Position numbers and translations under genes: made by a program
The notes under the pieces: generated by a model
What the model saw: the letters and a program-made list of their open reading frames with translations, nothing else
The model's database searches: none
What the model was told of the DNA's origin: nothing
Shown: positions 2,317-33,868 of the stretch, one piece after another
How the letters are laid out: each line of letters begins with the position of its first letter
How positions within the stretch are numbered: the stretch's first letter is position 1
DNA from: Actinomycetota bacterium
Lineage (GTDB): Bacteria; Actinomycetota; Acidimicrobiia; Acidimicrobiales; CAIXPF01
Assembly: GCA_016870475.1 (NCBI GenBank)
Contig: VGBO01000014.1
Location: 1-44,552 of the forward strand
Length of the DNA stretch: 44,552 bases
Reading direction: 5' to 3'

Positions 2317-5300
2317 GTGCTCCACCTGACCGCCGCCGACCGTCTCGACACCCTCGTCGACGCGGCCGCCGCGGTCCTCGTCGAGCCACAGCATGACGTG
2401 TTCGACCCGGAATGGGTCGTGGTCAACACGCAAGGTGTCGACCGCTGGCTGCGCAATCGCCTGGCGCGGCGGCTCGGCGCGACGAACGGCGCCGACGGAA
2501 TCGCGACGAACATCGACACGCTGTTCCCCGGTCAGTTCCGATCCCGGGTACTCGGCCGCCCCGACCCCGCCACCGACCCGTGGGATCTCCGAGCACTGCC
2601 CTGGGCGGTCCTCCAGGTCCTCCACGACGACCCGGACCTGCTGCGTGCCGTACCCGGCGGCGACGGAGGTGCGCCCTGGGCTCGGGCGCGTCGCATCGCC
2701 GATCTGTTCGACCGCTACCTCCTCCACCGACCCGAGATGATCGCCGCCTGGGCAGCGAACGATCACGGGGCTGCCGACATCGACGCGAGCGGCAACGCGC
2801 TGCCGCCCGGTCACCGGCACGCCTGGCAGCCCGAGGTCTTCCGAGCGGTGCGTCGGCACATCGGGAGCCCGAGCGCCGCGGAGACCCTGCACGCCCGCAT
2901 CGATGCGATCCGAGCGGGCGACATCCCCGACGAGGTACCCGAACGGATCGTCATCTTCGGCATCGCGACCCTCACCGGAGGGCGCACCTGGTTCGACCTC
3001 GTCGATGCGATCGCCGTGCACCGCGACGTCCACGTCCTGCTCCATCGCAGCTCCCCCGGTCTCGGCGACACCGTGCGGACGCAACTCCCCGACGACGGGC
3101 GTCCCACGTCCCGCCGCGGGCTCCGCGACGCCGTAACGGGCCGACACCCGCTGCTGCGATCATGGGCGAGGCCGGCACTCGAGACCGAGGCCCTCCTCTG
3201 CGATCGGGACATCCGCCACGTGCCCGAGGAGCGCAGCGCCTCCGGAACGCTGCTCGGCCAGGTCCAGGCCGATCTGCGGGCCGATCGGCCACCCCGACCC
3301 TGCGCCGAGGCCGCCGAGGACGGAACGCTCGTCGTCCATGCCGCGCACGGTCGCCGACGGCAGGTGGAGGTGCTGCGCGACGAACTTCTCCGGCTGCTGC
3401 GGGACCGACCGGACCTCACCGAGGACGAGATCGTCGTGCTCTGCCCCGATCTCGGCTCGTTCGCGCCACTCGTCCGCGCGGTCTTCGGCCCGCCCGCACC
3501 GTCCGGCGCCGACGTACCGACCGACCCCGTCGGTCCGGGAGGTGCACCCGCGCTGGCGTATCGCATCAGCGACCGGTCCCTCACCGAGACCGTCCCCACC
3601 TACGCGGCCTTCGACGCGGTGGTCGCCCTCCTCGGCACACGCTTCGGCGTCGGGGCGCTGCGTGACCTCCTCCAGTCGGCCCCCGTCGCCCGGCGTCTGT
3701 CCCTCGGCCCGAGCGAACTCGGAACGATCGACGACTGGCTCGCCGAAGCGGACGTCCGCTGGGGGCTCGACGCCTCCCATCGCACGGCTTGGTCGGCGCC
3801 GGCCGACTACGACGCCGGAACCTGGCAACACCTGCTCGACCGGCTCCTCGTCGGGGCCGTCGTCCTCGATCGACCCGACGCGCCGTCGACCCCTCGTGGC
3901 GTCGTCCCGCTCCACGTGGAGGGGTCCGACATCGACCTCGCCGGCCGAGTCGCCGACGTCCTCGCCCGACTGGCCGCACTCGACGAGTTCGCCCGCGCCG
4001 AGCACCCCATCGACGACTGGGTCGCACGGCTGACCACCGAGGTCGACGCCCTCCTCGCGACCTCGGGGGACGAGCGCTGGCAACTCGATCGCCTCCGCGA
4101 GGACCTCCGCGCACTCGCGCCGAAGGGCGCTGCCGGCGGGGCAGGCACCGAGATCCCGCTCGGGCTCGCCGACGTGCGCCGGATCCTCCGCTCGGGCGTG
4201 GGACGGCGGACCACGGGGCGGACCGACTTCTTCCGCGGCGGCGTGACGGTGACGTCCCTCGTGCCGCTTCGCGGCGTGCCCTTCCGCGTCGTCGCGCTGC
4301 TCGGCCTCGACGACCAGGTGTTCGCCGGCGGCGCCGACGCAGACGGCGACGACCTCACCTCCGTCGCGCCACTCGTCGGCGATCCCGATCGCCGGGCCGA
4401 CGTGCGGCACAGCCTGCTCGATGCGCTCCTCGCCGCCGACGACGCCGTGGTCGTCCTGCGTACCGGTCACGATCTCGTCACCGATCGAGAGGTTCCGCCC
4501 TCCGTCGTCGTCGCCGAGCTCCTCGGCACGCTCGGTGCACACCTCGAGACGACCGATCGCACCCGACTCGAGGTCCATCACCCTCGCCAGTCCTTCGACC
4601 CGACCAACTTCGATGTCGCCGACCCACGGAGCTTCGACCGCACTGCGCTCGCCGCAGCAGAGGCCCTGCGTGACCGTGCGCCAACCATGCCACGCCCCGC
4701 AGGCGTCGCCACCTTGCGGCGCACGGCGACCGAACCGCGCCACGACGAGGTCGAGGTGGTCGACCTCGCCGAGCTGCTGGACTTCTTCCGTCATCCGATG
4801 CGCCACCACCTTCGTCGGGTCGCCGGGCTCTCCCTTCCTCCCGACACCGCATCGGCCTGGTCGTCCTCCGCCTCGGCGGTCGACGGTCGCGACCTGCAGC
4901 TCGACCTCGACGACCTCCAGCAGTGGAAGCTCGTCGATGGGCTCCTCCTCCCGACCCTGCACGGGATCGGCGGCGCCGCGGCGCTCGACCGCGCCCGCCG
5001 GGCCGGCGAGCTGCCCCCGGGCCGCTACGGCGAACGGTCCGCCGAGCAGATCGAACGGATCCTCGACCTGCTCGCGCAGAGGGCGAACGACCTCGGCCTC
5101 GACGGATCCACCGTCCGGACCCCGGTCGACATCCCGCTCGCCGGTGGCCGCCGGCGCCTCACCGGGGTGATCACCGAATCCGCAGGCGACGAGCGGGGCC
5201 CGTACCGAGTCCGCGCGTCCAAGGCCAAGTGGGCGACGCATCTCTGCGGGTACTTCGCGGACGCCATCGACGTCGCCGTCGAGCTCTGCGCCTTGACCGT

Positions 5301-19306: not shown

Positions 19307-20317
19307 ATGTCCGCCACGGTGTCCCCTGACGGCTACGACGTGATCGGTGACGTGCACGGGAATGCTCCCCGGCTCGATGCCCTGCTTCGCAAGCTCGGGT
19401 ACGACGACGCTACGGGCGTGTTCCGCCACCCGCGTGGGCGGCGCGTGGTCTTCGTCGGCGACCTCATCGACCGAAAGGCCGAGCAGGTTCGAACGGTCAC
19501 CATCGCCCGGTCCATGGTCGAGGCCGGCACCGCTCTCATGGTCCTCGGGAACCACGAGGTCAACGCCATCGCGTTCGCCACGCCGACGAGCGATGAGCGC
19601 GAGTTCCTCCGCCCGCACAGCGAGAAGCACGAGGAGCAGCACCGGGCCTTCCTCGACGAGTTCGGGTTCGGGACCGCTGCGCACCGCGAGGTCCTCGACT
19701 GGTTCCGCAAGCAGCCGCTGTGGCGGGAACTCGACGGTGCGCTGCGTGTCGTCCACGCCTGCTGGGACCCGGCCGCGATCGCCGGTCTCGGCAGCCCGGT
19801 CCTCGACAAGGGCACGTTCGTCGAGGCCCACCCGCTCGACAAGAACTCCCCCGCGTACTGGTGGGTCGAACACCTCTGCAAGGGCCCGGAGATCAAGCTC
19901 CCGGATGACCAGTCCTTCCTCGACAAGAGCGATCACCGGCGCCACCACGCTCGAACCCGTTGGTGGCTGCCGGAAGCCCGCACGCACGCCCAGCTCTGCG
20001 AACTGCCCGAGGCAGACGCCAACCGCCTCGCTACGGAGTGGTGGTGGCACGAAGCACCCGTGCGGGACCCGAGGAACCCGAGGCCGCTCGTGCCGGCGTA
20101 CACCGATCCGATCCCGGTGATCTTCGGGCACTACTGGCGGCACCCCGACAGCACGCCCGAGTCCCTCGTGCACGGCCGGCCGGTGTGCGTCGACCTCAGC
20201 GCCGGGAAGTGTGGTCCGCTCGTCGCCTACCGCTGGTCGGGCGAGTCGATCGCCGATCCGGCGAACCTCGTGGGCGCCGGCGGTCGTTGGGACGGGGTCA
20301 CGGCCGACCGAGCATGA
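19307..20317 (+). CDS. Calcineurin-like metallophosphoesterase
   Basis: This 336-residue protein starts with the two-metal phosphoesterase pattern: DVHGN (about residues 15-19), GDLIDR and GNHEVNAIAF, with later histidines in VVHACWD and IFGHYWR. It is most like the bis(5'-nucleosyl)-tetraphosphatase and PrpE group within the calcineurin superfamily, so the substrate may be a dinucleoside polyphosphate or a phosphoprotein. GGAGGT ahead of the ATG at 19307 fixes the start. The frame is open far upstream but that is the shadow of the monooxygenase. The 3' end overlaps the PadR-TOBE gene on the other strand by 20 bases. Confidence 0.87.
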   Translation: MSATVSPDGYDVIGDVHGNAPRLDALLRKLGYDDATGVFRHPRGRRVVFVGDLIDRKAEQVRTVTIARSMVEAGTALMVLGNHEVNAIAFATPTSDEREFLRPHSEKHEEQHRAFLDEFGFGTAAHREVLDWFRKQPLWRELDGALRVVHACWDPAAIAGLGSPVLDKGTFVEAHPLDKNSPAYWWVEHLCKGPEIKLPDDQSFLDKSDHRRHHARTRWWLPEARTHAQLCELPEADANRLATEWWWHEAPVRDPRNPRPLVPAYTDPIPVIFGHYWRHPDSTPESLVHGRPVCVDLSAGKCGPLVAYRWSGESIADPANLVGAGGRWDGVTADRA

Positions 20318-21056
20318 CCTCGGTCGACTTCACGATCACGAGCACCTCGTCGTCGACGACGACGTCGAGGTCGGCAACGCTCTCACGAGTCACGACCGCC
20401 GTGAGGAACTGACCGTCGGGCAGCACGGTCCGCACGGTGGCGAGGACGTCGCCGAGTTGCACCGACACCACCCGGGCGCGCACCTGGTTGCGGGCACTGA
20501 GCCGCAACGGTGTCGGCGGCCGGGCCACCGCGGCGGACGGCTCCTCGAGGAGCAGGTCGAGGAAGCGCCGCACCGCACGCGCCTGCTCGCGACGCCACAG
20601 GTCGACGGGGCCGGCTGCCGGTCCGGCATCGGCGAGACGGGCGAATCGTTCGGCGAACTGTGCTCGCTGCGCGTCGACGAGGCCGTGGATGTCGAGGTCA
20701 CGGCGTCGGAGCAGTTCGACCTTGAGGAGCAGCTCGGTGCGAACGTCGCGCAGGTGCTCGACCGGAGCGGCGAGCCACGCCCGGGCCGCCGTGCGCCCCT
20801 TCGCCGACACGCGGAGGGCGACCCGCTCCCGGGTCCGACGCTCCCCACCGGCGGCACGCGTCAGCAGACCACGCTCGGCGAGCGTCTCGATCGAGCGGTA
20901 GACGAGTGGCCGGGACAGGTGCCAGATCCGCCCGAGCTCGCCGTCCTCGGCGAGCAGGGTCCCGACCGCCCATCCGTGGCCGACACCTTCGTCGACGAGG
21001 GCGAGGCAGACGCGATCCGCAAGCGTGAGGGGCGTCGGCTCGGCCACGGCGCGCAT
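20298..21056 (-). CDS. PadR-like regulator fused to a TOBE (molybdate-binding) domain
   Basis: The 252-residue protein has an N-terminal winged helix of PadR type (LTLADRVCLALVDEG, then WHLSRPLVYRSIETLAERGLL), a helical PadR C-terminal segment up to about residue 180, and a TOBE/Mop domain from about 186 to 252. The domain begins with SARNQ, the characteristic opening of Mop-type domains that bind molybdate or tungstate, and ends in VIVKSTEVML. In E. coli the molybdate sensor ModE joins a LysR-type helix-turn-helix to such domains; here a PadR domain takes that place. I infer an oxyanion-responsive regulator, possibly of modABC at 30149-32807. It starts one base after the Fur-family gene, so both are co-transcribed. 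Confidence 0.82.
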   Translation of the reverse strand: MRAVAEPTPLTLADRVCLALVDEGVGHGWAVGTLLAEDGELGRIWHLSRPLVYRSIETLAERGLLTRAAGGERRTRERVALRVSAKGRTAARAWLAAPVEHLRDVRTELLLKVELLRRRDLDIHGLVDAQRAQFAERFARLADAGPAAGPVDLWRREQARAVRRFLDLLLEEPSAAVARPPTPLRLSARNQVRARVVSVQLGDVLATVRTVLPDGQFLTAVVTRESVADLDVVVDDEVLVIVKSTEVMLGRP

Positions 21057-21057
21057 G

Positions 21058-21531
21058 CTACCGGTGGTGCCCGGGAGCGGTTCCCGGGCTGTCGACCCCT
21101 CGACCGACGCAGCGGCGGCAGCGTCCGGAGACCGTGAGGTGCTCAGGGTCGGCGGCGAACCCGTGTCGGTCTGCGAGCCGGTCGCGCAGGTCGTCGAGAT
21201 CGGTGTCGGGAAACTCCACCGTTGCACCGCAGCTCCGGCACACAGCGTGGTGGTGGGCGTCACCGGCGAGGTGGTAGGCGACCGGCTGGTCACCGAGACG
21301 AGCAGCGCGGAGGATGCCCGACTCCCGCAGCGCGTCGACGGTCCGGTAGACGGTCGACAGGTGGATCGTCGGGGTGCGACGACGCACCCGGGCTGCGAGC
21401 TCCTCCACACCGATGTGGTCGTGGCCCGCGTCGAGGAGCTCGGCAAGCACGGCGCGTCGCGCCGCGGTCACCCTGACCCCGCGGTCCCGCAGCTGGTCGA
21501 GGAGGGCATCGAGACGGCGGGCTGACGGCAC
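21058..21531 (-). CDS. Fur-family metal-responsive regulator
   Basis: This 157-residue repressor has the Fur fold: an N-terminal winged helix with VTAARRAVLAELLDA and the recognition helix LSTVYRTVDAL, then AYHLAGDAHHHAVCRSCG carrying the HHH metal site and first CxxC. A second CxxC (CRRC) follows near the C-terminus for structural zinc. Placement divergent from a cobalt/nickel ECF transporter suggests a Nur- or Zur-like role controlling that transporter. The metal cannot be read from sequence. The GTG at 21531 lies 6 bases after a GATACT box with no Shine-Dalgarno sequence, so the mRNA is probably leaderless. Confidence 0.88.
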   Translation of the reverse strand: MPSARRLDALLDQLRDRGVRVTAARRAVLAELLDAGHDHIGVEELAARVRRRTPTIHLSTVYRTVDALRESGILRAARLGDQPVAYHLAGDAHHHAVCRSCGATVEFPDTDLDDLRDRLADRHGFAADPEHLTVSGRCRRCVGRGVDSPGTAPGHHR

Positions 21532-21537
21532 GCCCGA

Positions 21538-21545
21538 AGTATCGC
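21538..21545 (-). promoter_or_regulatory. -10 region of the Fur-family gene
   Basis: On the minus strand this reads GCGATACT, with GATACT as the likely -10 box, 6 bases before the GTG. The identical eight bases occur on the plus strand at 21575-21582, so the divergent promoters mirror one another with 29 bases between. Confidence 0.45.
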
Positions 21546-21574
21546 GTCGACGACGCGGGCACGGCGCCCCCTGT

Positions 21575-21582
21575 GCGATACT
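21575..21582 (+). promoter_or_regulatory. -10 region of the cbiM operon
   Basis: GCGATACT on the plus strand, mirrored by the Fur-gene box. The transcript would begin near 21589, leaving a leader of about 27 bases with an AAAGGA ribosome binding site before the cbiM GTG. Confidence 0.4.
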
Positions 21583-21587
21583 CCAAC

Positions 21588-21604
21588 CTGCGATTAGTTC
21601 GCAG
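21588..21604 (+). promoter_or_regulatory. Palindromic operator candidate at the cbiM transcription start
   Basis: CTGCGA-TTAGT-TCGCAG is a perfect 6-bp inverted repeat with a 5-base centre, an arrangement like a Fur/Nur/Zur half-site pair. It covers the predicted transcription start of cbiM and lies just before the ribosome binding site, so a bound repressor would block the operon. The adjacent Fur-family protein is the obvious candidate ligand. This is inference. Confidence 0.5.
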
Positions 21605-21615
21605 AAAGGACCGCC

Positions 21616-22272
21616 GTGCATCTCCCCGACGGGTTCGTCGACGCCCCCACCTCGCTCGCTGCGGCGACGGTCGCCGCTGCAGCAGTGGCGGTGACGCTTC
21701 GGCGATCCCCCGGCGTCGAACCGCTGACCGGGCTCCTCGCCGCGTTCGTCCTCGCTGCGCAGATGCTCAACGTTCCGATCGCAGCGGGGACCTCCGGCCA
21801 CGTCCTCGGCGCGGTCCTCGCCGTGGTCCTCGTCGGGCCGGGTCCGGCGTTGCTGGCCACGACCACGGTGATCATCGTGCAGGCGCTGCTCCTCGCCGAT
21901 GGTGGGGTGAGCGCCCTCGGCCTCAACGTCGTGAACCTTGCGGTCGTCCCGGTCGTCGTCGGTTGGCTGGTCTTCGAAGGGATCCGCCGGGCCACCCCGT
22001 CCGGTCGGACCACCCTGCTGGCGGCGACGGCCCTCGCCGCCTGGGCCTCGGTCGTCGCGGCCGCGGCGGCGTTGGCCCTCGAATACGCCGTCGGGGGTTC
22101 GGGTGCCGTGCCCGCCGGCCGCCTCGCCCTTGCGATGGTCGGCGTCCACACGCTGATCGGCGTCCTCGAAGCGGTCGTCACGGTCGCCATCGTCGGCGCA
22201 GTGCTCTCGAGTCGGCCCGATCTCGTCCACGGTGCGCGACACCTCCGCCGGGCCACGGCGGTGGCGCGGTGA
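21616..22272 (+). CDS. cbiM: Cobalt/nickel ECF transporter S-component CbiM
   Basis: This 218-residue membrane protein opens with MHLPDGF. In this family the N-terminal Met-His pair helps coordinate Co2+ or Ni2+. A second family motif, GTSGH, follows at about residue 58, and six to seven hydrophobic segments fill the rest. It is the substrate-binding component of an energy-coupling-factor transporter whose other parts are the next three genes. The GTG at 21616 must be the start because the second residue is the metal-binding histidine. It overlaps the next gene by 4 bases. Cobalt and nickel cannot be separated from sequence alone. Confidence 0.93.
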   Translation: MHLPDGFVDAPTSLAAATVAAAAVAVTLRRSPGVEPLTGLLAAFVLAAQMLNVPIAAGTSGHVLGAVLAVVLVGPGPALLATTTVIIVQALLLADGGVSALGLNVVNLAVVPVVVGWLVFEGIRRATPSGRTTLLAATALAAWASVVAAAAALALEYAVGGSGAVPAGRLALAMVGVHTLIGVLEAVVTVAIVGAVLSSRPDLVHGARHLRRATAVAR

Positions 22273-22547
22273 CGACCTCACGGCGTGCTGCGCTGCTCGC
22301 CGTCGCGCTCGTCGCCGTGCTCGTCCTCGCTCTCGGGGCGGACCGCTGGGCGAGCGAGTCCCCCGACGGCTTCGAACGCGTCGCTATCGACAACGCCCTG
22401 CTCGTCGAGGAACCCGAGGCCACCGAGCCCACCGACGACGGTCTCGACGTCGGCACCGTCGCCCGGACCGCGGCTGGCGTGGTAGCGGTCGCACTCACCA
22501 TGCTCGCCCTCCCGCGCATCGTCCGGCGCGCCGCCGAGGAGCGGTGA
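22269..22547 (+). CDS. PDGLE-domain protein, CbiN-like component
   Basis: A 92-residue protein with two membrane helices (LLAVALVAVLVLALGA and VVAVALTMLALP) around an extracellular segment carrying SPDGFERVA, the PDGLE-domain motif. Such proteins replace or join CbiN/NikN as the small auxiliary subunit of CbiM transporters. The GTG start overlaps the cbiM stop, and its stop overlaps the cbiQ start. Confidence 0.87.
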   Translation: MTTSRRAALLAVALVAVLVLALGADRWASESPDGFERVAIDNALLVEEPEATEPTDDGLDVGTVARTAAGVVAVALTMLALPRIVRRAAEER

Positions 22548-23320
22548 GGCCGGCGCCCCCCGTCCCGGGTGGCGCACAGCCCCTACCGGTCGGTGCGACG
22601 GTGGCTGCAGCCAGGGTCGCCGCGCTGCTCGTCTTCCTCGGCGCGGTCGTTGCGACCCCGACCCGGAGTCTCGGCACCTTCGCCGTGCACGCCGGCGGAC
22701 TGTCGCTGCTGGCGCTCCTCGTGCGCGTTCCCGCCGCCCGCCTGCGAAACGCCCTGCTGCTCGAGGTGCCCGTCGTCGCCTTCGCGGCGCTGCTGCCGCT
22801 CCTCGGTGTCGGTCCACATGTTGCGGTGGGACCGCTCGATCTCTCCGTACCGGGCCTGTGGGAGGCCTGGTCGATCCTCGCCCGCGCAACACTCGGCCTG
22901 CTGGCGACCACGATCCTGCTCGCGACGATGCCGGTGGCCGACGTGCTGGCCGGTTGCGGCCGGCTGCGGTTGCCATCCCAACTCGTCGCTGTTGCCGGGT
23001 TCGCGCTGCGGTACGGGGTCGTGGTGCAGGACGACGCCCGGCGGATGCGGCTCGCCAGGGCGGCCCGGGGTGACGACCCACGGTGGATCTGGCAGGCACG
23101 CGGACTCATGGCGTCCACCGGGGCGCTCTTCGTGCGGAGCTTCGAGCGCGGTGAGCGCGTGCACCGGGCGATGCTCGCCCGGGGATACGACGGGCGAACG
23201 GCGCTCCACATCCTCGACCCGACGGCCGAGCGCCCCCTCCGCCCCACCCACGCACTGCTGCTCAGCGTGGTCCCGATCGCCTCGTGGACCGCTACCGGCG
23301 CAGCGTTGGTGCTCCGATGA
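22544..23320 (+). CDS. cbiQ: ECF transporter T-component CbiQ
   Basis: This 258-residue membrane protein links the ATPase to CbiM. After several hydrophobic helices it has MRLARAARGDD and, near the end, RSFERGERVHRAMLARGYDGR. The second segment matches the conserved C-terminal coupling helix (E-R-(A/S)-x-R-G pattern) of ECF T-components. The GTG at 22544 overlaps the upstream stop, and the stop overlaps the cbiO ATG, so all four genes form one translationally coupled operon. Confidence 0.9.
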   Translation: MRPAPPVPGGAQPLPVGATVAAARVAALLVFLGAVVATPTRSLGTFAVHAGGLSLLALLVRVPAARLRNALLLEVPVVAFAALLPLLGVGPHVAVGPLDLSVPGLWEAWSILARATLGLLATTILLATMPVADVLAGCGRLRLPSQLVAVAGFALRYGVVVQDDARRMRLARAARGDDPRWIWQARGLMASTGALFVRSFERGERVHRAMLARGYDGRTALHILDPTAERPLRPTHALLLSVVPIASWTATGAALVLR

Positions 23321-24087
23321 CCGCCGGCCCAGACCGGGCGGATCACCCGGCGAGCATCGAGGTCGTCGGGCTCGGGCACGTCCATCCCGAGGGACGGCGG
23401 GCCCTCGAGGACGTTTCCTTCCGCATCGGGCCGGGTGAACGGGTCGCCCTGCTCGGCGCGAACGGGTCGGGGAAGACCACCCTTCTGCTCCACCTCAACG
23501 GGCTGCTTCGGGCGACCGAGGGGTTGGTGCGCATCGATGACCTCACCGTCGACGACGGCCACGTCTCCACGGTTCGCCGGCGCGTCGGGTTCGTGTTCCA
23601 GGACGCCGACGACCAGCTGTTCTTGCCGACCATCGGTCGGGATGTCGCGTTCGGACCCGCGAAGGAGGGCCTCCGTGGTGCAGCCCTCGATGAACGCGTC
23701 GCTGCCGCACTCGATGCCGTCGGGCTCGCCGGGTTCGCCGATCGTGCCCCGCATCAGCTGAGCGCCGGCGAACGACGGCGGGCCGCGCTCGCAACCGTGC
23801 TCGCGATGCGCCCGGGCGCGCTCGTCCTCGACGAACCGACCGCCGACCTCGACGCACGGGGTCGAGTCGATCTCGGCCGCGCGCTCGACGCGATGAGCTG
23901 CACCCTCGTGCTCGTCACCCACGATCTCGTCGTCGCTGCGGAGCACGGTGACCGGGTGCTGATCCTCGACGAGGGCCGGCTGGTGGCCGACGGGCCCGCC
24001 GCCGATCTCCTCGACGATGTCGACCTCCTCGTACGCCACGGCGTCGCCACCCCACCACGGCGCCGACGGACCCGGCCCGGGCCATGA
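23317..24087 (+). CDS. cbiO: ECF transporter ATPase CbiO
   Basis: A 256-residue ATPase that powers the cobalt/nickel importer. It has Walker A GANGSGKTT, the Q-loop stretch VFQDADDQLF typical of ECF ATPases, signature LSAGERRRAAL, Walker B LVLDEPTADLD and switch VTHDL. Only one ATPase is encoded, so a homodimer is expected. It converges on the acyl-CoA dehydrogenase gene with a gap of 6 bases. Confidence 0.95.
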   Translation: MTAGPDRADHPASIEVVGLGHVHPEGRRALEDVSFRIGPGERVALLGANGSGKTTLLLHLNGLLRATEGLVRIDDLTVDDGHVSTVRRRVGFVFQDADDQLFLPTIGRDVAFGPAKEGLRGAALDERVAAALDAVGLAGFADRAPHQLSAGERRRAALATVLAMRPGALVLDEPTADLDARGRVDLGRALDAMSCTLVLVTHDLVVAAEHGDRVLILDEGRLVADGPAADLLDDVDLLVRHGVATPPRRRRTRPGP

Positions 24088-30114: not shown

Positions 30115-30133
30115 ATAGTCAGGTTCTGATTGT
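30115..30133 (+). promoter_or_regulatory. Operator candidate upstream of modA
   Basis: ATAGTCAG-GTT-CTGATTGT is an imperfect inverted repeat (6 of 8 positions paired) ending two bases before the modA -10 box. It therefore occupies the region from about -34 to -16. Its position suits a repressor. The PadR-TOBE protein at 20298-21056 is a candidate binder. Confidence 0.35.
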
Positions 30134-30135
30134 TG

Positions 30136-30141
30136 TACAGT
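30136..30141 (+). promoter_or_regulatory. Leaderless -10 box of modA
   Basis: TACAGT, exactly 7 bases before the modA ATG, in an AT-richer patch than its surroundings. No ribosome binding site is visible. Confidence 0.5.
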
Positions 30142-30148
30142 CTCATCT

Positions 30149-30919
30149 ATGGCTCATCGCAAGCACGCACGAACGCTCCTCGCCGTCGCGCTGCTCGTCG
30201 GTGCACTGACCGCTGCCGGTTGCGGTCGAAGGTCGACGCAGGCCTCGAGCACGGTGACGGTGTTCGCCGCGGCCTCGCTCACCGAGGTGTTCACGAGCAT
30301 CGGCGAGGGGTTCGAAGCCGACAACCCCGGCGTGGAGATCACCTTCAACTTCGCTTCGTCGTCTGCGCTCGCGGGTCAGATCACGAGCGGGGCACCAGTC
30401 GACGTCTTCGCGTCGGCGGACGCGGCAACCATGTCGAGGCTCACCGACGCCGGTGGGACCACTGGCGCGCCGATGACCTTCGCACGGAACGAGCTCGTCA
30501 TCGTCGTGGGCGCGGGCAACCCGAGGAAGATCACCTCGATCCGTGACCTCGCAGACCCGGACCTGATCGTCGTCCTCGCTGCGCCGCAGGTCCCCGCCGG
30601 CCGGTACGCCGCGCAGATCCTCGAGCAGGCCGGTGTCACCGTGACCCCGAAGAGCCTCGAAGCCGACGTCAAGGCGGTGCTCACGAAGGTCACGAGCGGC
30701 GAGGCGGACGCCGGGATCGTGTACGCCACCGACGTCCGCGCCGCGGGCGACGAGGCGGTCGGCATTGCGATCCCCGAAGCGGCGAACGTCGTCGCCACCT
30801 ATCCCGTGGCCATCGTGGAGGGCGCCCCGAACCCCGCGGGAGCGAGCGCGTTCCTCGCCTACCTCACCGGACCGAAGGGTCAGGCGACGCTCGCCTCGTT
30901 CGGGTTCGGTCGGCCATGA
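30149..30919 (+). CDS. modA: Molybdate ABC transporter substrate-binding lipoprotein
   Basis: The 256-residue protein captures molybdate (or tungstate) outside the membrane. It has a lipoprotein signal with the lipobox TAAGC (Cys25), then VTVFAAASLTEVF, the classic ModA opening. PVDVFASAD, GAGNPRKI, APQVPAGRYA and GEADAGIVYATD follow. The next genes overlap it and encode the permease and ATPase. The ATG lies 7 bases after a -10-like box. Confidence 0.95.
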   Translation: MAHRKHARTLLAVALLVGALTAAGCGRRSTQASSTVTVFAAASLTEVFTSIGEGFEADNPGVEITFNFASSSALAGQITSGAPVDVFASADAATMSRLTDAGGTTGAPMTFARNELVIVVGAGNPRKITSIRDLADPDLIVVLAAPQVPAGRYAAQILEQAGVTVTPKSLEADVKAVLTKVTSGEADAGIVYATDVRAAGDEAVGIAIPEAANVVATYPVAIVEGAPNPAGASAFLAYLTGPKGQATLASFGFGRP

Positions 30920-31746
30920 GCTCGCGGACCACGCGCGACCGGCTGCCGCTTGCCGTAATGGGCCTCGCAGCCCTCGCCGTAGGGTTCTTCGCGCTCCCGC
31001 TCCTCGGGCTGCTGTGGCGGGCACCGTGGTCGTCGGCGTGGGACGTCGTCACCGACCCGATCACACGAGCTGCCCTGTGGCTCTCGATCTCCTGTTCGTT
31101 GTGGTCGACGGCGGCCTCGGTGCTCTTCGGCGTGCCGCTCGCCTGGGTGCTCGCCCGCGTCGAGTTCCCCGGTCGTGGCGTGGTTCGGGCGCTGTGCACC
31201 CTGTCGATGGTCGTTCCCCCCGTCGTCGGGGGTGTCGCTCTCTTCGCCGCGCTCGGGAGGCGCGGCCTGCTCGGGCAGTACCTCGACCTGTGGTTCGGCC
31301 TGCGACTGCCGTTCAGTACCGCCGGGGTCGTGGTGGCGCAGACCTTCGTCGCCATGCCGTTCCTCGTGATCACCGTGGAGGGGGCGCTCCGTCAGCAGGA
31401 TCGGCGGCTCGAGGAGGCGGCCAGGACCCTCGGTGCCACGAGCTGGTACGCCTTCCGTCGGGTGACGCTTCCCTCGATCCGCCCCGCGCTCATCGCCGGC
31501 ACCGTGCTCGCGTGGGCACGGGCACTCGGGGAGTTCGGGGCAACGATCACCTTCGCCGGGAATTTCCCTGGTCGCACCCAGACCCTTCCGCTCGCCGCCT
31601 ACCTCGCGCTCGAGACGGACCCCGACGACGCGATCGTGTTGTCGCTGCTCCTCATCTCGACGTCCTTTGTCGTGCTCGTCGGACTCCGGGACCGATGGTT
31701 GGGGGCGGCCGCCTCGGGCACCGGACGATCGGTTGCGGAGCGGTGA
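30916..31746 (+). CDS. modB: Molybdate ABC transporter permease
   Basis: The 276-residue membrane protein has about six hydrophobic helices and the permease coupling motif EEAARTLGATSWYAFRRVTLP, where the ATPase docks. The following ARALGEFGATITFAGNFPGRTQTLP segment is strongly conserved in ModB. It overlaps modA and modC by 4 bases each. Confidence 0.95.
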   Translation: MSSRTTRDRLPLAVMGLAALAVGFFALPLLGLLWRAPWSSAWDVVTDPITRAALWLSISCSLWSTAASVLFGVPLAWVLARVEFPGRGVVRALCTLSMVVPPVVGGVALFAALGRRGLLGQYLDLWFGLRLPFSTAGVVVAQTFVAMPFLVITVEGALRQQDRRLEEAARTLGATSWYAFRRVTLPSIRPALIAGTVLAWARALGEFGATITFAGNFPGRTQTLPLAAYLALETDPDDAIVLSLLLISTSFVVLVGLRDRWLGAAASGTGRSVAER

Positions 31747-32807
31747 GCGACGCACTCGAGATCGAGGCGCAGGTCCGCCTCGGCGGACTCGATCTCGCCG
31801 TCGAGCTGCGCGTGGCCGCCGACGAGACGGTCGCTCTCCTCGGCCCGAACGGCTCGGGCAAGACGACCCTCCTGCGCGCCGTCGCAGGTCTGCAGCCCCT
31901 CGACGCCGGATCGATCCGTCTCGATGGCGTCACCCTCGACGCCCCGGCGACCCACACCCTGGTCCCCGCCGAACGACGACCTGTCGGCGTGGTGTTCCAG
32001 GACTATCTGTTGTTCCCACACCTGAGCGCGCGGGAGAACGTGGCGTTCGGGTTGCGGGCACGGAAGGTCGGTCGCAGGGAGGCCGGGGAGCGGGCCGACC
32101 GCTGGCTCGAACGGGTCGGCCTCGGCACGGTCGGCGCACTCCGTGCGGGCCAGCTCTCCGGTGGCCAGCAGCAACGGGTCGCCCTCGCCCGGGCGCTGGC
32201 CACCGAGCCGCGCCTCCTGCTGCTCGACGAGCCGCTCGCCGCACTCGACGTCGGCACCCGGGCGGAGGTGCGCAGGGAGCTCCGCCGGCACCTCGATGGC
32301 CACGACGGTCCGAGGATCCTCGTGACGCACGACCCACTCGACGCGTACGCACTCGCCGACCGGGTCGTCGTGTTGGAGCGCGGGAACGTCACCCACCGTG
32401 GGACCCTCACCGAGATCACCGCCCACCCCCGAAGCGACTACGTCGGCCGACTGGTCGGCACCAACCTTCTCGACGGCGTACTCGAGGGGACCGTGCTGCG
32501 TCTCTCCGGTGGTGGCGTGCTCGTGGTCCCGAACGGCGAGGCGGTCGACGGGCCGTGCCTGGCCACCGTGGCGCCATCGGCGATCGCCCTGCATCGGGAT
32601 GCCCCGACCGGCAGCCCGCGCAACGCCTGGTCGGCGACCGTGGCCGAACTCGACCGATTCGGTGACCGGGTGCGCGTGCGCCTCGACGGACCGGTTCCGC
32701 TCGCCGCCGAGGTGACCGCGGCGGCCGCTGCGGAACTCGACATCCGCTCGGGCGACACGGTCTGGGCGAGCGTGAAGGCGACCGAGGTGAAGGTCTACCC
32801 GGCCTGA
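31743..32807 (+). CDS. modC: Molybdate ABC transporter ATPase with TOBE domain
   Basis: This 354-residue ATPase drives ModB. It has Walker A GPNGSGKTT, Q-loop VFQDYLLFPH, signature LSGGQQQRVALARAL, Walker B LLLLDEPLAALD and switch VTHDP. A C-terminal TOBE domain (about 290-354, ending WASVKATEVKVYPA) can bind oxyanion and inhibit transport when molybdate is plentiful. The GTG start overlaps modB; the frame is open far upstream but only as shadow of modB. Confidence 0.95.
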   Translation: MSDALEIEAQVRLGGLDLAVELRVAADETVALLGPNGSGKTTLLRAVAGLQPLDAGSIRLDGVTLDAPATHTLVPAERRPVGVVFQDYLLFPHLSARENVAFGLRARKVGRREAGERADRWLERVGLGTVGALRAGQLSGGQQQRVALARALATEPRLLLLDEPLAALDVGTRAEVRRELRRHLDGHDGPRILVTHDPLDAYALADRVVVLERGNVTHRGTLTEITAHPRSDYVGRLVGTNLLDGVLEGTVLRLSGGGVLVVPNGEAVDGPCLATVAPSAIALHRDAPTGSPRNAWSATVAELDRFGDRVRVRLDGPVPLAAEVTAAAAAELDIRSGDTVWASVKATEVKVYPA

Positions 32808-33834: not shown

Positions 33835-33868
33835 CTGGTTGAGTCAATCTTCACTGGTTGACTAGGGT
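33835..33868 (+). promoter_or_regulatory. ars operon promoter and ArsR operator candidate
   Basis: A -35-like TTGAGT (33839-33844) and a -10-like TAGGGT (33863-33868) are 18 bases apart, and the ATG follows the -10 box by 7 bases, so a leaderless transcript is likely. The same stretch contains an inverted repeat AGTCAA (33842-33847) / TTGACT (33858-33863) and two copies of CTGGTTGA 19 bases apart, overlapping the promoter. That is what an ArsR self-repression site would look like. Confidence 0.5.

Follow-up and report, generated by a model that had tools for sequence, protein, structure and literature searches.

How molybdate uptake might be regulated in a bacterium that lacks ModE is the question raised by a gene in the window analysed here, a stretch of 44,552 nucleotides from an actinomycetotal genome of the order Acidimicrobiales (contig VGBO01000014.1). 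In the open-access literature searched, no publication on a molybdate regulator of the PadR type was found. The gene, padR-mop (20298-21056, minus strand, read from 21056 down to 20298), encodes a protein of 252 residues made of a PadR winged helix, a helical PadR C-terminal part and a Mop domain. Judged from its sequence and from that of its relatives, the protein is probably a transcriptional repressor of modABC that is built on a PadR scaffold and depends on molybdate, perhaps also on tungstate. The first-pass annotation had placed modABC about 9 kb away in the same window, and the genes are indeed located at 30149-32807 on the plus strand, where modA (30149-30919; TIGR01256, 158.6 bits, cut-off 62.5) is followed by modB (30916-31746; TIGR02141, 221 bits, cut-off 182.6) and by modC (31743-32807), which combines ABC_tran with a C-terminal TOBE domain and whose best NCBIfam matches are under their cut-offs. 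A Moco riboswitch at modA was considered and rejected, as no Rfam match is present between positions 20000 and 34000 of the window.

The same annotation had read the protein as a PadR-like half joined to a C-terminal TOBE/Mop domain, and this architecture holds. The C-terminal part carries a single Mop/TOBE domain (residues 184-251; 20304-20507, minus strand) that is recognized above cut-off both by TIGR00638 over residues 184-251 (64 bits, cut-off 55) and, as TOBE, by PF03459 over residues 187-249 (48.2 bits, cut-off 22.3), so that the annotation withstands its own criterion for refutation, a missing TOBE match in a profile search. The domain includes SARN and KST motifs with the oxyanion-site residues S187, R189, T223, K243 and S244. 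A profile of the fused proteins aligns without gaps to the solved Mop protein 9bem, and these five residues align with S4, R6, S40, K60 and A61 of that chain. According to the excerpted text of PMC11980592, the type-2 tungstate site of Tub is formed by Ser4, Arg6, Lys60 and Ala61 together with Ser40 of a neighbour, a residue numbering from which the 9bem chain appears to be this Tub. S187, R189, T223 and K243 are invariant across the three fused proteins known, and the Mop domain is predicted to bind molybdate.

The domain search was less direct for the other half. The PadR-like winged-helix part (residues 18-91; 20784-21005, minus strand) matches PF03551, but by itself it reaches 15.8 bits in a Pfam scan, below the cut-off of 27, although PF03551 is matched at E≤0.01 by 25 of 28 aligned family members (best 1e-10). 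In addition, a profile built from all three fused proteins reached AphA and a PadR regulator among the solved structures (PDB sequences). Through the matches of its relatives to PF03551 and the profile matches to AphA and PadR, the window protein can be placed in the PadR family at the level of sequence. NCBIfam holds no model that names this particular family, the commonest match being a general PadR model (10 of the 28 members). The winged helix is followed by a family-specific helical part (residues 92-170; 20547-20783, minus strand), which the alignment marks by the signatures WLxxPVxHxRDxR and WRxExAxAxRFL. A structure prediction from two sequences gave a mean pLDDT of 48 and was unusable.

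A search with the window protein in 298 genomes of the order returned 48 genomes with a match, and the removal of six that were weak or matched only Mop left 42 family genomes. The fused form was found in these 298 genomes only in the window, in G311 (55% over residues 6-252) and in G543 (36% over residues 3-249); since the same two-domain protein occurs in two other genomes, a chance observation can be excluded. With the family profile, 26 of 148 class genomes contain a member at 172-229 bits, while the next score is 77, so that the distribution is bimodal; other PadR paralogues reach at most this value. Eleven of 396 phylum genomes have a member, all of them in the order or class of the window, and the next score is 76. 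These profile scores set the PadR half apart as a family of its own, confined among the 396 phylum genomes to the class of the window, which is probably Acidimicrobiia; a further member, L003, was found in a MAG whose title reads Acidobacteria.

The family is closely associated with mod genes. Besides the window, 56 non-redundant members were counted, with L011, a short locus that ends at a contig edge beside a modC, left out of both the count and the tree. A ModA/ModB gene lies within 1.5 kb of the family padR in 50 of these 56 members and within 5 kb in 51; padR is divergent from it in 30, on the same strand in 19 and convergent in two, and in five none is present in the stretch examined. 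The linkage is repeated in members first found by the class search, which belong to other families of the class, whereas a ModA/ModB match is absent from all 27 loci (24 + 3) of generic PadR paralogues. Counted per genome, a close ModB is present in 192 of the 298 order genomes, with 36 of the 42 family genomes against 156 of the 256 others. Co-occurrence of the fused architecture with modABC had been proposed as a check, and both fused relatives, in G311 and G543, are directly divergent from modABC. Among the exceptions, a more distant SBP_bac_11/ModB-type transporter is the neighbour at L058 (3.4 kb) and at related loci from a single family, and in the unlinked locus L108 padR is divergent from a Peripla_BP_2/FecCD-type ABC importer, with an operator-like palindrome (score 17.0) between the two at 4567-4585 of that locus; this importer is possibly a molybdate importer.

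The Mop domain is present in three of 57 family rows and absent from 54, so the association with mod genes does not depend on it. In the 57-row tree the window and G311 proteins group together (96/94) inside Mop-less relatives while G543 stands elsewhere, and the presence of Mop needs at least two changes on well-supported branches. The Mop domain of G543 is equally like a solo Mop (53%) and the Mop of G311 (53%). On the tree, Mop would either have been added to PadR proteins that were already associated with mod genes or have been lost in most members. This distribution bears on what senses the oxyanion. It may be the PadR core that senses molybdate, tungstate or a transporter-derived signal, with Mop in an accessory role, buffering or storing molybdate or tuning the sensitivity. 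In favour of this, linkage and operator are kept in most of the family even though nearly all of its rows lack Mop; a separate Mop protein as partner for the Mop-less PadRs was looked for and rejected, being present in one of the 39 Mop-less PadR genomes examined (G673); and V99, R106, K112 and R155 of the core are invariant in the 28-row alignment, with H101 and R103 nearly so. Yet these residues may be structural, and the fusion arose or was kept at two places of the tree with its oxyanion residues intact, as would be expected if Mop senses; sensing by the core is rather unlikely. In G673, the solo Mop protein is encoded directly behind modC (169-387 of locus L151).

The padR-modA intergenic regions have in common a 17-bp palindrome, TAGTCA-N5-TGACTA. 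Palindromic EM on 27 divergent regions, with the window left out, yielded nTAGTCACAnTGTGACTAn (21.3 bits) at a score of 289, against 31.7-39.4 in ten dinucleotide-shuffled sets. On leave-one-out scoring, 26 of the 27 training regions reach 13.2-28.8, and the remaining one, from G311, reaches 3.5 with one good half-site. With this matrix, the best of all window positions lies just upstream of modA, at 30115-30133 (score 12.4), which is the very stretch singled out by the first-pass annotation; the predicted operator, ATAGTCAGGTTCTGATTGT, is not assigned to a strand and has two mismatches to the palindrome. It is its place that makes this site count and not the rarity of such sites, as the 2.45-Mb genome of the window contains three sites with at most two mismatches against 11 for a reversed control pattern. 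A point against Mop-dependent repression is that the weakest operators belong to the window and G311, which carry the two most closely related of the fused proteins. The second-best site of the window (12.2; 33847-33865) lies directly ahead of a gene that joins an HTH of the ArsR type to an LMWPc (arsenate-reductase-like) domain, behind which are encoded a MIP channel and another LMWPc protein; it may be an ArsR site or a chance match.

Outside the training set, 15 of 29 family loci have a site of at least 12 in front of a mod gene or padR, and 21 do once further mod DNA of six loci is read. The tandem modABC-padR loci (L157, L158, L159 and L161) have the site upstream of modA. The eight loci without such a site are L025, where modA is off the contig, L035 (7.0), L059 (11.5), L043, L044, L058, L056 and L057; the mod loci of the L056 and L057 genomes show no operator site either. 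Unlinked relatives whose mod loci lack the site are G296, in whose locus no modA was found, and G542, which weighs against the proposed regulation. As a negative control, 20 mod loci were taken from genomes without the PadR, none of which has a PadR profile match; the operator is absent at their 19 modA genes (scores -10.8 to 3.2).

The position of the operator also suggests how it may work. A candidate -10 box, TACAGT (30136-30141, plus strand), follows the 19-mer after 2 nt and is itself followed, after 7 nt, by the modA ATG. In 8 of 28 regions the last TA of the operator is also the beginning of a TANNNT box that lies 6-7 nt ahead of the modA start. Overlap with the -10 box is the usual position for a repressor, and this promoter layout suggests a leaderless modA mRNA and repression by occlusion. 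In the proposed mechanism, a PadR dimer would bind the palindrome at the modA promoter, in or beside the -10 box. With molybdate in ample supply, the Mop domains would bind the oxyanion at sites between Mop protomers, and this would stabilize the DNA-binding oligomer, so that uptake is shut off; when molybdate is scarce, PadR-Mop would leave the DNA and modABC would be expressed. We infer the binding to this operator, the sign of regulation and the oligomeric switch from sequence. The sign could be the opposite, with PadR-Mop activating modABC under molybdate shortage, as in L014, L038 and L040 the operator lies further upstream, 16-22 nt from the -10 box; however, the overlap with that box in the eight regions noted above is what a repressor would show, and activation is improbable.

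In the window, modA would retain its operator even though padR-mop lies some 9 kb away, behind a gene of the Fur family (21058-21531, minus strand; PF01475, 88.8 bits; start codon tentative). As the Fur-family gene ends 1 nt before the padR-mop ATG, the two probably form one operon. The Fur-family gene, in tandem with padR-mop, is divergent from a cbiMNQO-type cobalt/nickel importer (21058-24087 in all), and a CbiM-like gene also follows modABC in locus L104. That the displaced padR-mop now regulates these new neighbours, the Fur-like gene and cbiMNQO cobalt/nickel uptake, instead of modABC is suggested by this close arrangement alongside a gene divergent from cbiM, but it is very unlikely, since no operator site above 0.8 bits occurs in the Fur/cbiM gap (21400-21700), the best site of the window is at modA and both relatives with the fusion have their gene divergent from modABC.

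Repression of modABC by PadR-Mop would fill a role for which ModE was not found in the order: TIGR00637 matches above cut-off in none of 198 order genomes, including that of the window. A MerR/HTH_17-Mop gene lies beside modA in 12 of the 20 PadR-less mod loci (three of them Pfam-scanned; L123, L124, L125, L126, L128, L129, L131, L132, L135, L136, L138 and L139) and also in L055, but in none of 97 PadR-family loci (a redundant set). These proteins of about 135 residues are an apparent alternative regulator in genomes without the PadR. The domain profiles, the linkage to mod genes, the operator at the modA promoter and the absence of ModE from the order sample support the suggestion of the first-pass annotation that the protein is equivalent to ModE but uses another DNA-binding scaffold. 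The PadR family is a candidate regulator of molybdate uptake with a defined predicted operator and target, and the Mop sensor is seen combined with DNA-binding scaffolds that are unrelated to one another (ModE, MerR-type and PadR), apparently for the same task. A wider proposal, still tentative, would place the PadR subfamily, spread across the class, alongside ModE and MerR-Mop as a third line of repressors of molybdate/tungstate uptake, in which the core would sense molybdate status without Mop, Mop would have been captured at least two times as an add-on sensor, and the three fused genes would be a regulator caught changing its sensor.

Comparison with known systems defines what is new. Like ModE of the E. 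coli type, PadR-Mop has a winged-helix half, a C-terminal Mop/TOBE part and a predicted operator at the mod promoter. ModE has two Mop domains per chain, whereas PadR-Mop has one Mop stretch (residues 184-251); its N-terminal domain is of the PadR type, without a TIGR00637 match, the NF007957 match is limited to residues 173-248, around the Mop region, and its predicted operator is TAGTCA-N5-TGACTA. By these defining features PadR-Mop is not a ModE, though it is predicted to work like one. The MerR/HTH_17-Mop regulators of the same order share the combination of an HTH with one Mop and the place beside modA, but they are shorter, have a MerR-type HTH and never occur in one locus with the PadR family. 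As far as the excerpted text of PMC11980592 describes them, some ModE-like proteins have one TOBE, and TaoR-like regulators consist of HTH, PBP-like and TOBE domains; the latter resemble PadR-Mop in joining a DNA-binding domain to TOBE and differ in their PBP-like domain, which PadR-Mop lacks. Finally, the PadR family (PF03551; AphA, PadR) provides the N-terminal winged helix and helical C-terminal part, within which the present proteins form a subfamily of their own, with the WRxExAxAxRFL signature, linkage to mod genes and a predicted operator, set apart from generic paralogues at no more than 77 bits. What is new, at the level of sequence, is a probable PadR-scaffold mod regulator of which three known members carry a Mop sensor.
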